Source: Marinilabiliaceae bacterium
GTDB lineage: Bacteria; Bacteroidota; Bacteroidia; Bacteroidales; Marinilabiliaceae
Direction: 5' to 3'
Assembly (NCBI GenBank): GCA_016342595.1
Contig: JAEINY010000003.1
Span: forward strand, 1-64,000
Length of the DNA stretch: 64,000 nucleotides
The first letter of the stretch is position 1. Each line of letters begins with the position of its first letter. A model generated the notes under the pieces. The model was not told the DNA's origin. It saw only the letters and a program-made list of their open reading frames with translations, and did not search any database. This document shows positions 3-3,861 of this stretch, piece after piece. Both the position numbers and the translations under genes were made by a program.

Positions 3-2420
3 AAATCATTACCTGAAGATTTCATTATTTCACTTTATCTGGATAAGCGAAATCACCTTTGGATTGGGAGTAAGAATAAGGGATTATGGCAGATGAGTTT
101 AAATGCCAAACCATTTAAACATTACTATCATGTGCCTGGGCAAAATAGTTTGTTGGGTAATTCTGTTTTTGGATTGGCACAGGATGAATATGATAATGTA
201 TGGATTGGAACTCAGGAGGGATTAACACATTTAGATTTGAAAAGCAATGTGTTTACACCTGTAGATATTTTGAAAGACGGTAGTTTGATGTCAGTTTGGA
301 CATTGTACGCTGAAAAACCCAATTCGCTATGGATCGGAACCTCCAATGGTGTTATGAAATATGATATTATCACTAAAAAATATGAGGTCTATTCCTATGA
401 TGAAGACGATCCTACCTCCCTATCAAATGATGAGGTGTTTGCCATTGAGAAAGATAAATTAGGACGTTTGTGGGTGGGAACTGTTTATGGCTTGAACCGT
501 TATATTCCGGAGGAAAAACGATTTAAACGCTATCCGGCTTTCGGTACCTCTCGTTCGTTGAGTCATCCCACCATATGGAGTATTGATAAAGACAGTAAAG
601 GGAGATTGTGGATTTCCACAGCTGAGGGTTTGAATTTGTACAATTACAAAACGGATGATTTTACGGTTATAAAACATCGTACAGACGATTCGTTGTCTAT
701 TAGTGATAGTTATGTCAATTCGGTGTATGAAGATCATCAGAACCGCATTTGGGTATCCACCCGGCAGGGTATTAGTGTTTTAAATGATGAATTAGAGGTT
801 GTCAGGCAAGTTCATTTGGCTCAGGGAATGGCCAGTTCTTATGTCTACTCATTATTGGAGCACAACGGACATATTTGGGCTTCTACAAATTTTGGTTTGG
901 CGTGTATTAATACAACTAACTTTCGGATTGAAAATTTTAATGTGACAGATGGGCTTCAAGCCAATGAATTTAATATTGCAGCCTTGAAGTTAGCTGATGA
1001 GCGATTGATATTCGGAGGGATTAACGGATTGTCTGTTTTTCATTCGGATAGCATCACCAGGTCTGATTTCGTCCCACCTATCTATTTTACAGGACTTAAG
1101 CTATACGAGAGAGATATCTCTCCACGGGATACCACTTCCTGGCATGATATTGTCATTCGTTCATCAATGATAAATGCGCGTACACTAAAGCTTAGTCCTC
1201 AAGAAAAGGTGATCACTCTTGAATTTGCAGCCCTCGACTTTGATGCTCCTGAGCGAATTAATTATTTTTATCGTCTTTTACCTAATACTAAGGATTGGAT
1301 TCCACTTGGAAATAAAAACTTTCTGACATTCATTAATCTTAATCCGGGGAAATATCAGCTTGAAATAAAATCCACTAATGCAGATGGTCTTATCTGTGAT
1401 AATGTAAAATCCCTTAAAATTGAAGTGAAGCCACCTTTATGGAAGGAAACTTGGTTTATTACAATGGAGTTTTTATTCCTGTTTTTGTTTGTTTATTCGA
1501 TAGTGCGGTATCGAATGCACCGATTAAAGCGAGATAAAGAGCGATTGGAATCTGTCGTGGAATCAAGAACGCGAGAAATTGAAGTGCAGCGTAATGTGGC
1601 TCATAAGCAACGGGATGAAATCGCCAGACAAAAGGTACAACTGGAAGAATTTGCAAAGGGTTTGGAAGAGAAAGTGAAGGATAGAACGCGTGAATTGGAA
1701 AAGGCTAAAGTAAAAGCAGAGGAGTCCGATCGGCTAAAGTCGGCGTTCTTATCAAATATGTCGCATGAGATTAGAACACCTATGAATGCGATCATTGGTT
1801 TTTCTGAGTTATTATTGGAGCCTTCATTTGAAGAGAAAGAGCGAATAGCATTTGCTCAAATGATTAAAACCAATGGGGATACGCTTCTTAATTTGTTGAG
1901 CGATATCATTGATATTTCAATGATCGAAAGTGGTCAGTTGAAAACAAGTCAATCACGAACCGATGTGAATCAACTAATGAATGCGGTCTATGCAACATTT
2001 TCTAAAACCAACGTGATTGATGATAAGTTAGGTGTTGAATTGATTTTGGACTGTACGGACAAGGAAATAGTATTGAATACCGATCCGCTTCGGTTAACGC
2101 AAATACTCAATAATCTACTGGGTAATGCCTTGAAATTTACAGAGCAAGGTTTTGTGAAAATGGGGTGTCAAGTGATTTCTGACCAATGGGTTGAGTTCTA
2201 TGTCGAAGACTCAGGTATAGGGATAGATCTGGAATATCAGAAGCAAATATTTGATCGCTTTTTAAAAGTTGAAGAAGACAAAGATCATCTATATCGAGGC
2301 AGTGGATTGGGCCTGACTATCACCAAAAATTTAGTGGAATTGTTAGATGGTACCATTGGTCTGGAATCAGAGAAAGATAAAGGTTCCCGGTTCTTCTTCC
2401 GATTACCCTATAATTATTAG
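3..2420 (+). CDS. Propeller-type sensor histidine kinase (5' end outside window)
   Basis: The reading frame enters from the left edge, because codons from base 3 already encode a propeller blade motif (LWIG) upstream of the first ATG at 93. Several two-component-regulator propeller blades follow (repeated W-I-G-T and L-W-V-G type motifs), then a Y_Y_Y domain, one membrane helix around bases 1450-1510, a coiled-coil linker, HisKA and HATPase_c. The phospho-acceptor His is in MSHEIRTPMN (His codon 1764-1766). N, G1 and G2 boxes are visible as NNLLGNALKF, EDSGIGID and GSGLGLTI. The protein ends directly after the ATPase domain, so it lacks the receiver and AraC domains of classical hybrid two-component systems. 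Such kinases sense periplasmic ligands, often glycans, and phosphorylate a separate response regulator; the ligand cannot be told here. Confidence 0.93.
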   Translation, partial: KSLPEDFIISLYLDKRNHLWIGSKNKGLWQMSLNAKPFKHYYHVPGQNSLLGNSVFGLAQDEYDNVWIGTQEGLTHLDLKSNVFTPVDILKDGSLMSVWTLYAEKPNSLWIGTSNGVMKYDIITKKYEVYSYDEDDPTSLSNDEVFAIEKDKLGRLWVGTVYGLNRYIPEEKRFKRYPAFGTSRSLSHPTIWSIDKDSKGRLWISTAEGLNLYNYKTDDFTVIKHRTDDSLSISDSYVNSVYEDHQNRIWVSTRQGISVLNDELEVVRQVHLAQGMASSYVYSLLEHNGHIWASTNFGLACINTTNFRIENFNVTDGLQANEFNIAALKLADERLIFGGINGLSVFHSDSITRSDFVPPIYFTGLKLYERDISPRDTTSWHDIVIRSSMINARTLKLSPQEKVITLEFAALDFDAPERINYFYRLLPNTKDWIPLGNKNFLTFINLNPGKYQLEIKSTNADGLICDNVKSLKIEVKPPLWKETWFITMEFLFLFLFVYSIVRYRMHRLKRDKERLESVVESRTREIEVQRNVAHKQRDEIARQKVQLEEFAKGLEEKVKDRTRELEKAKVKAEESDRLKSAFLSNMSHEIRTPMNAIIGFSELLLEPSFEEKERIAFAQMIKTNGDTLLNLLSDIIDISMIESGQLKTSQSRTDVNQLMNAVYATFSKTNVIDDKLGVELILDCTDKEIVLNTDPLRLTQILNNLLGNALKFTEQGFVKMGCQVISDQWVEFYVEDSGIGIDLEYQKQIFDRFLKVEEDKDHLYRGSGLGLTITKNLVELLDGTIGLESEKDKGSRFFFRLPYNY

Positions 2421-2450: not shown

Positions 2451-2939
2451 TTATTCCAAGTGCAGATGAGTGCCTGTTTTTATTTCACGCATCACAAATG
2501 AGCTTCTAACATTGCCGATGTTTTCAATGGAAGCCAGTTTGTTATAAATGAAATTGTGGTAAGTATCCATATCCTTGGTGATGATCTTAAGCATATAGTC
2601 GTACATGCCTGCAATATGGTGACACTCTAATACTTCAGAAGATTTGACAATTTCAACTTCAAATTCCCGAATCACATCGTGTGAATGGTGTTTCAGCGAA
2701 ACATTACAAAAAGCGATCAGCTCTTTACCTACTTTTTGTTTATTGATGATGGCCACATATTTTTCGATGACACCGTTGCGCTCCAGTCGTTTCATGCGCT
2801 CAAATACAGGTGTCAGGCTTAGTCCCAAATGATGAGCGAGTTGTTTGGTGGTCATCTTTGCATCCTGTTGTAATAAATCCAACAGCTTTTTATCTGTTTT
2901 GTCTAATTGAATAGGAGAAAATTTTTCCTCTTTAGCCAT
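2451..2939 (-). CDS. Lrp/AsnC family transcriptional regulator
   Basis: A 162-residue protein with the two-domain Lrp/AsnC plan. The N-terminal winged helix-turn-helix (about residues 15-70) reads MTTKQLAHHLGLSLTPVFER, and a C-terminal RAM/AsnC ligand-binding domain follows (about 75-155). Length is typical of the family. These proteins are octameric or dimeric regulators of amino-acid metabolism that sense amino acids through the RAM domain. It is convergent with the sensor kinase (30 nt between stops) and has no co-directional partner, so its targets are unknown; autoregulation is common in the family. No exact TAnnTTTG box is seen upstream. Confidence 0.93.
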   Translation of the reverse strand: MAKEEKFSPIQLDKTDKKLLDLLQQDAKMTTKQLAHHLGLSLTPVFERMKRLERNGVIEKYVAIINKQKVGKELIAFCNVSLKHHSHDVIREFEVEIVKSSEVLECHHIAGMYDYMLKIITKDMDTYHNFIYNKLASIENIGNVRSSFVMREIKTGTHLHLE

Positions 2940-3074
2940 GGTAATACAGTATTTATGCTTTATTTTTCCTGTGATATCGCAATGCTAAGAAAAAAAAACT
3001 AAAAACTTTATGGTATGTAGGAAAAAATGTCTATAAAGTGGTATGTTTGTTTGTAATAATAGAGTGATAATTCT

Positions 3075-3200
3075 TTATTGAAATATAGATACACACCTTC
3101 TAGGTGGTTATGAAGGTGAGCAATTCGGCCACTTAGTGGTCTGAATTTGGTTTTTATGGTTAATGTTTTGCTTAAGCCCGGAGACGTCCGGGCTTTTTTT
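3075..3200 (+). ncRNA. Candidate structured small RNA, unknown family
   Basis: An apparently gene-free stretch that folds into three consecutive hairpins on the + strand. Hairpin 1 is CACCTTC 3094-3100 with GAAGGTG 3112-3118. Hairpin 2 is an 11-bp stem with one bulged T between 3122-3132 and 3136-3147. Hairpin 3 is an intrinsic terminator, 3174-3195, followed by a T run. No + strand gene ends upstream that would need the terminator. A loose promoter (TTTG 3046-3049, 18-nt gap, TAATTCTT 3068-3075) lies just before. I do not recognise it as tmRNA, 6S, SRP or RNase P RNA. It could instead be a regulatory leader or simply a terminator region. Confidence 0.35.
3174..3200 (+). terminator. Intrinsic terminator of the RNA candidate
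   Basis: Perfect 8-bp stem AAGCCCGG (3174-3181) / CCGGGCTT (3188-3195) with loop AGACGT, followed by T's to 3200. The T tract is on the + strand only. The minus-strand gene ending at 3199 has no T run on its far side, so this signal belongs to + strand transcription. Confidence 0.75.
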
Positions 3201-3564
3201 ATGCCTTTTTTTGACGGTATTCCATATAAACCAGATGATAATCAACGATTGAAGAGCTATTTGGAAACGAATCTCCTTTTAACCATCCCCATCGGAGTAA
3301 GGCATGCTCAATAATTTGCCGGTCACTCCCTGAGTTTTCATGCCACTTCTCTGCCAAAAATCGAAATGCTTTACATTGTTTACAGCGCCATTCTGTTTGA
3401 AGTACTACATTATCAGTAGCTTTTCGCATTGTCCATTCGCATATGGCCAGATAGGTTTCTTTATACTTTCGTTTAACGTATTTGCAATCTTTTTTACTGC
3501 CGTAGCTTGGTAAACATATTAATAGGAGGAGGGTGAAACTGATGATCCGAAATGTCTTTTGCAT
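3199..3564 (-). CDS. Small secreted protein of unknown function
   Basis: A 121-residue protein beginning with a clear Sec signal peptide (MQKTFRIISFTLLLLICLPS, probable cleavage after YGS around residue 22). The mature part is basic and aromatic, with cysteines at K-D-C-K, I-C-E-W and a CxxC pair (WRCKQCKAF); these could form disulfides or bind a metal in the periplasm. I do not recognise the family. It stands alone with an ATG start, and no co-directional neighbour within the same transcription unit is obvious. Confidence 0.7.
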   Translation of the reverse strand: MQKTFRIISFTLLLLICLPSYGSKKDCKYVKRKYKETYLAICEWTMRKATDNVVLQTEWRCKQCKAFRFLAEKWHENSGSDRQIIEHALLRWGWLKGDSFPNSSSIVDYHLVYMEYRQKKA

Positions 3565-3861
3565 GATAGTGTTGTTTTATGGTATTCAAAGTTACAACTC
3601 ATTCTTGAGAAAATGGATTCATTACACGAAACGGTAAGTTCATTCTCTATTTTTTATTGTTTAAGTCTTTTTTCTATCAAATTAACATTTACTTTTTCTA
3701 TTTTCGGCGTGAACAATTTGATGTTATTCTTTTTTATATTGGGTTTAAATAAAATTGGTCGATTAAAGATAAAAATCTATTTTTAACCCTCTTAATAATT
3801 GACTTACCCTATTCTACCTAAAGGAAAAATTATTTTTTGTGACTTAAAAAATTAAAGTATC

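Follow-up and report, generated by a model that had tools for sequence, protein, structure and literature searches.

Where new small RNA (sRNA) genes come from is an open question, and the 3′ UTRs of mRNAs are a proposed source. The portions of PMC9438474 considered here describe several 3′-UTR-derived sRNAs of gammaproteobacteria (SdhX, NarS, FarS and OppZ). Bacteroides lacks Hfq, and extended seeds have been suggested as a compensation for its absence, in the part of PMC7366714 that also gives TAnnTTTG as the −7 promoter consensus of Bacteroidota. The locus analysed here lies in a window of 64,000 nt (contig C177) from a Marinilabiliaceae bacterium whose assembly comprises 6.76 Mb (98.99% complete, 6.04% contamination), and which has its closest relatives among Carboxylicivirga and other members of the Marinilabiliaceae (Bacteroidales). 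Comparison with these relatives strongly supports the reading of the locus as an sRNA gene: with a probability of about 0.86, the candidate RNA is a trans-acting, base-pairing sRNA that derives from the 3′ end of the mRNA of a PLP enzyme and became a stand-alone transcript after deletion of the coding region. The features on which this reading is built are collected in Table 1.

Table 1. Features of the sRNA locus and its neighbours, in window coordinates.
Feature	Position	Strand	Description
Histidine-kinase gene	93-2420	+	Neighbour, upstream of lrp; name presumed from its translation
lrp (Lrp/AsnC-family regulator)	2451-2939	−	Divergent from the RNA; NF008370 and synteny
−7 element TATGTTTG	3042-3049	+	TAnnTTTG consensus; conserved position relative to lrp
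Proposed sRNA	3056-3200	+	Estimated length about 145 nt, the 5′ end being placed by the −7 element; terminator, homologues
Hairpin 1	3094-3118	+	CACCTTC/GAAGGTG, 3094-3100 with 3112-3118, 7 bp; from codons AFEVVKKA of the lost enzyme
Hairpin 2	3122-3147	+	3122-3132 with 3136-3147, 11 bp, one bulged T (3142)
Invariant pairing segment GGTTTTTATGGTTAATGTTTTGC	3149-3171	+	23 nt, identical in 16 genomes
Intrinsic terminator	3174-3200	+	9-bp stem (3174-3195), then T run to 3200; sequence and fold
Small secreted-protein gene	3199-3564	−	Converges on the RNA; presumed V-ATPase genes beyond

Sequence and fold bear out the architecture of the original prediction, two hairpins (of 7 bp, and of 11 bp with one bulge) followed by a terminator, and its placement between the minus-strand lrp and a secreted-protein gene stands as given; no long plus-strand ORF was found that would explain the hairpins. 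To call the RNA an orphan, as was done there, is historically wrong. Judging from the homologous loci, it is what is left of the 3′-terminal part of an enzyme gene that Carboxylicivirga still has intact. A BLAST search of the region against 61 genomes returned three clear homologues in Carboxylicivirga, together with several matches of 24-34 nt to a single segment, and in this genus the sequence of the RNA is made up of the final codons of a PLP-enzyme gene beside lrp and of the 3′ UTR of that gene. The enzyme belongs to the cystathionine gamma-synthase family (NCBIfam NF005455, 555 bits against a cut-off of 504) and scores below the cut-off for methionine gamma-lyase (TIGR01328, 368 bits against 550). 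At E≤1e-60 the protein is present in 32 of 71 family genomes, including all 14 Carboxylicivirga, and is absent from the window genome and from strain JC017 (G019). Every one of the 14 Carboxylicivirga 3′ UTRs holds the segment TTTGGTTTTTATGGTTAATGTTTTGC followed by a terminator, so that in this genus the RNA closes a coding gene and has its terminator in common with it, as expected for a 3′-UTR-derived sRNA, while the window keeps the relic only. The exact 23-mer occurs in this sense context in 16 of the 71 family genomes, and it was not seen by eye in 16 enzyme 3′ UTRs fetched from other genera.

The decay of the parent gene can be followed at this one locus. The gene order is histidine kinase, lrp, enzyme and RNA in C. 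marina, and lrp, RNA, secreted protein and V-ATPase in JC017; lrp accompanies the locus in Carboxylicivirga and JC017 alike, its product in the window having NF008370 (Lrp) as best NCBIfam match, with a score of 120 bits that falls short of the equivalog cut-off (233). The small secreted-protein gene keeps the same position in JC017 and gave no match in an NCBIfam profile search. JC017 retains a 40-codon C-terminal relic of the enzyme with an in-frame stop (tblastn E 2e-4). In the window about 15 enzyme codons are still recognisable at the DNA level, and a Glu codon within hairpin 1 has turned into TAG. A tree of the MetY and IlvD proteins, built from the 23 genomes having both loci, groups the window genome with Carboxylicivirga and leaves JC017 outside the two (support values of 0.95-0.96, with one neighbouring node carrying no value). 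Because of this placement, and because the enzyme occurs in more distant genera, two separate losses make the simpler history, and the enzyme was likely lost independently in the lineages of the window genome and of JC017.

What appears to have been inherited along with the RNA is the promoter of the enzyme. The promoter-like pair of the original prediction, TTTG/TAATTCTT, is not the conserved one. Of the 16 genomes, 15 instead have a TAnnTTTG element at a distance of 101-105 nt from the start of lrp, the exception being G071: it precedes the enzyme gene in 13 of the 14 Carboxylicivirga and the relic RNA in JC017 (102 nt) and in the window (103 nt). Since the element holds the same position before the enzyme and before the RNA, the stand-alone RNA seems to use the promoter of its parent, and from the location of the conserved −7 element the RNA probably begins near 3056. 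The predicted sRNA itself is supported, by its stems, its pairing segment and the complement before metY, and its proposed size of about 125 nt gives way to an estimate of about 145 nt. A GTGGTwAAAwAAACTGC-like block, noticed by eye shortly upstream of TAnnTTTG in the lrp-enzyme intergenic region of many Carboxylicivirga, is a possible Lrp operator.

Folding energy taken alone is only moderate evidence for structure, because the minimum free energy of positions 3085-3205 (−37.3 kcal/mol, against −28.1 with a standard deviation of 3.63 in dinucleotide shuffles) has a z-score of just −2.53 and was equalled by 3 of 200 shuffles. The evolutionary evidence appears much stronger. Conservation of the stems in related genomes, a check suggested by the original prediction, was found together with compensatory changes in an alignment of 15 of the 16 RNAs (JC017 was set apart, its upstream part being unalignable), of which 14 distinct rows served for covariation. 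Over hairpins 1 and 2 together, 97.2% of cells are paired and six pairs have changed on both sides, a result equalled by none of 500 shuffles. Hairpin 1 has 99.0% of cells paired with double changes in 4 of 7 pairs, and hairpin 2 has 96.1% with double changes in 2 of 11. When the partners were slid by 1-3 columns as a control, just 24-53% of cells could pair, and RNAalifold recovered both hairpins independently. Hairpin 2 was formed from the last codons of the enzyme, its stop codon and the beginning of the 3′ UTR, and in Carboxylicivirga the stems double as codons. In the window, where coding is dead, hairpin 1 has gone from C-G-C-C/G-G-C-G to C-A-C-C/G-G-T-G, a change on both sides. Read by eye, each of the 15 aligned RNAs has a terminator-like hairpin after the segment, and so does the RNA of JC017, in which inspection by eye did not reveal hairpins 1 and 2. 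The pairing segment is unpaired in the 121-nt fold and predicted to be partly paired in the 146-nt form (mean unpaired 0.45), in which the added 5′ end covers part of it. Taken together, the locus appears to encode a conserved structured RNA with its own promoter element and an intrinsic terminator.

The invariant segment suggests what this RNA would do. In the window genome it has just two further matches at ≤3 mismatches, both antisense and both 2-8 nt before a start codon, one at metY (TIGR01326, O-acetylhomoserine sulfhydrylase) and the other at the gene that we take, by recognition, to be ilvD. For metY, ilvD, asnB and a leuA-like gene, 30 loci each were examined among the matches listed (matching genomes: 68, 67, 47 and 66, respectively). 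A complement of the segment ends 6-8 nt ahead of the metY ATG in all 16 genomes that carry the RNA, including that of the window, and in none of the 14 that do not among the matches listed, although these sites are not independent evidence because the genomes of the family are related and the sites may descend from one ancestor. The window genome pairs 20 Watson-Crick and 2 G-U positions out of 23, and the weaker site of JC017 pairs 17 Watson-Crick and 1 G-U. Among the matches listed, the 14 leaders from genomes without the RNA reach at best 10-14 Watson-Crick pairs, at varying places in the part of the leader examined. Site scores are 17.0-22.5 in the 16 genomes with the RNA and 13.0-15.5 in the 14 without it among the matches listed, and the predicted duplexes range from −21.0 to −37.6 kcal/mol in the former and from −7.5 to −17.9 kcal/mol in the latter, again among the matches listed. 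These comparisons show a conserved complementarity to mRNAs encoded elsewhere in the genome. The metY leaders also contain a short ORF with a Met-rich end (...HMMMCMMMTR*), in 16 of 16 genomes with the RNA and clearly in about 10 of the 14 without it among the matches listed; that of the window genome (C399, upstream of metY at 2038) encodes ...GMMDMMCMMTK* and is followed by a 10-bp inverted repeat. The ORF looks like a methionine leader-peptide attenuator, and an Rfam search of the metY leader gave no match.

The second site of the window genome lies 2 nt before ilvD and matches at 21 of 23 positions; ilvD itself precedes a leuA-like gene with which it shares contig and strand. Among the 14 Carboxylicivirga it is found at the same place in five, pairing with a 3-nt bulge, and it is missing in the other nine and in JC017; judged on energy alone, a fairly strong ilvD duplex (−23.8 kcal/mol) is also predicted for one genome without the RNA (G010). 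The ilvD leaders encode an Ile/Leu/Val-rich leader peptide, MKFNLSLILNIIIILVVIIIRT, in all 18 loci inspected (MNFNLSLILNIIIILVDIT in the window genome). In the window genome a terminator-like hairpin comes after the peptide, and the sRNA site lies downstream of this hairpin and ahead of the start codon of ilvD. From its sequence, this leader is a putative branched-chain attenuator. In the other Carboxylicivirga subclade a site 5-10 nt before what is presumably a leuA/cimA-like gene matches at 18-21 of 23 positions in 7 of 8 gene-bearing genomes, the exception being G035 with no more than 16 (in G027 the gene itself gave no match), and this site is absent in the window genome. Wobble-tolerant and 18-nt seed patterns gave 62 and 25 matches in the window genome against 107 and 46 for the reversed controls, so a broad regulon was rejected there; the lack of enrichment points to a narrow one in which only metY and ilvD are retained. 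Among other matches, that of G002 (L007), about 400 nt inside a coding gene, was treated as chance, L038, L039 and L041 (G070, G071 and G065) have no clear gene start, and L027 (G007) and L029 (G026) have no site at a start.

A different kind of site is found at a gene that we take to be asnB, for a glutamine-hydrolysing asparagine-synthase-like protein. In all 12 asnB-bearing Carboxylicivirga the 3′ UTR, otherwise diverged, holds a complement of the segment just before its terminator, with 15-21 Watson-Crick pairs. The duplex energy beats that of every genome without the RNA in 11 of the 12, the weak site of G035 failing. This 3′ UTR is a candidate sponge for the RNA, or a candidate second 3′-UTR RNA; the window genome has no match to asnB at E≤1e-200.

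These observations suggest a mechanism. The RNA would be transcribed from the old TAnnTTTG promoter of the enzyme, beside lrp and perhaps under Lrp control, and would fold into the two hairpins and terminator backed by covariation, leaving between them a U/G-rich pairing segment of 23-27 nt. This segment would pair with the A/C-rich site directly upstream of the metY start codon, and in the window genome with that of ilvD too, blocking ribosome entry, perhaps with decay of the mRNA, and lowering methionine and branched-chain synthesis. In Carboxylicivirga the RNA would be cut from the enzyme mRNA or end with it, and the complementary site in the asnB 3′ UTR could titrate it. Seen in this way, an amino-acid enzyme locus neighbouring an Lrp-type regulator would in addition restrain the synthesis of methionine and branched-chain amino acids.

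An RNA that pairs with the same targets could also activate or stabilise them, for example if pairing opened the leader or protected it against RNases. Complementarity by itself gives no sign of the effect, and in principle pairing could alter the folding of the metY and ilvD leaders, which seem to hold leader-peptide attenuators. Activation is nevertheless unlikely, since the sites end 2-8 nt short of the start codon, a position classically associated with a block of initiation, and the ilvD site comes after the attenuator-like hairpin. It is less probable still that the 3′ segment acts in cis on the stability or termination of the transcript of a decaying pseudogene and that its complements arose by chance in A/C-rich leaders. 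In favour of this reading, Bacteroidota leaders are A-rich, related leaders of genus g5 contain TTAACCTATAAA, and exact 20-mers are also found in front of ATGs elsewhere in the phylum, for instance in Chryseobacterium. The exact 20-mers found outside Marinilabiliaceae (for example in Chryseobacterium, Pedobacter, Arenibacter, one Bacteroidales MAG and one archaeal MAG) had no sRNA context by eye and were put down as chance or leader-like. Against chance stands the division of the metY sites by presence of the RNA (among the matches listed), as does the failure of shuffled seeds, of which 1 (metY) and 6 (ilvD) per 20000 matched the window scores with dinucleotide shuffling and 0 of 20000 with mononucleotide shuffling. 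The drift of the sites is also G-U compatible, departures at positions 2-23 of the metY site amounting to 43 wobble-compatible cells against 12 pair-breaking ones, and in G061 all six changes are G-U compatible and leave 23 of 23 positions paired. Further, the segment has been retained after loss of the enzyme in two lineages, and the complement recurs outside leaders, in the 3′ UTRs of asnB.

A small protein or leader peptide encoded at the locus is very improbable. An 8-codon frame, ATGAAGGTGAGCAATTCGGCCACTTAG, does begin at 3110, but in relatives the equivalent frame is the C-terminus of the enzyme, its ATG is absent from the other rows of the alignment and the changes follow base pairs. 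A cis-regulatory leader or riboswitch, to which a structured RNA with a terminal terminator might at first be assigned, can be dismissed almost entirely, since the gene that follows is transcribed in the other direction and Rfam offers no matching family: the Rfam search advised in the original prediction, with 4227 families, found none at the gathering threshold in the whole window, and for 2900-3600 it gave nothing better than sub-threshold matches.

With the base-pairing sRNA as the preferred reading, the evidence leans towards a wider history in which the RNA survived two or more independent losses of the protein, one in the window lineage and one in that of JC017, keeping promoter element, segment and terminator, and in which it would be, in Carboxylicivirga, the hub of an Hfq-free network of metY and ilv/leu genes with asnB as sponge. 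A search of the window genome with PF17209 gave no Hfq match, while 5 of 14 control genomes were positive, and the candidate RNA does not qualify there as an Hfq-dependent sRNA. It is very probably a new sRNA family, known in kind and unusual in that its whole origin is visible at one locus, and a targeted search of the available literature (sRNAs of Carboxylicivirga or Marinilabiliaceae, sRNAs pairing with metY) returned no report of it.

Among described systems, GibS and other sRNAs of Bacteroides thetaiotaomicron, as far as the available part of PMC7366714 describes them, resemble the present RNA in belonging to Bacteroidales without Hfq, in their AT-rich extended seed and in their TAnnTTTG promoters; they differ in their targets, and the present RNA has a traceable protein-coding parent. 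The sponge SroC and its target sRNA GcvB (PMC9438474, in the portions considered) offer a parallel in joining an amino-acid regulon with a 3′ UTR, here that of asnB, that bears a complementary site. No sequence relation to them is claimed, the sponge role of the asnB 3′ UTR is a predicted one, and the window genome lacks an asnB match at the threshold given above. For the Hfq-less Bacteroidota, the locus would add an sRNA with targets drawn from comparative genomics, extended pairing, an amino-acid regulon and a candidate 3′-UTR sponge. There is a likeness, too, to SdhX, NarS, FarS and OppZ: in the Carboxylicivirga the RNA shares the terminator of its parent, overlaps the last codons and has predicted targets in related metabolism. 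Unlike these sRNAs, as presented in those portions of PMC9438474, the present one occurs in a window genome without Hfq and has a long, 23-nt pairing segment; and both the window and JC017 have lost the parent coding gene and keep the RNA by itself, next to the promoter element of its parent, a persistence after loss of the coding gene of which those portions contain no case. Since one syntenic locus displays all the stages, parent with RNA, decayed parent with RNA, and parent almost gone with RNA, the birth of an sRNA by liberation from its parent becomes directly testable. If the reading is true, the locus would be, beside those relatives that still share an mRNA with their parent, a direct snapshot of the birth of an sRNA gene through the loss of the parent coding region.
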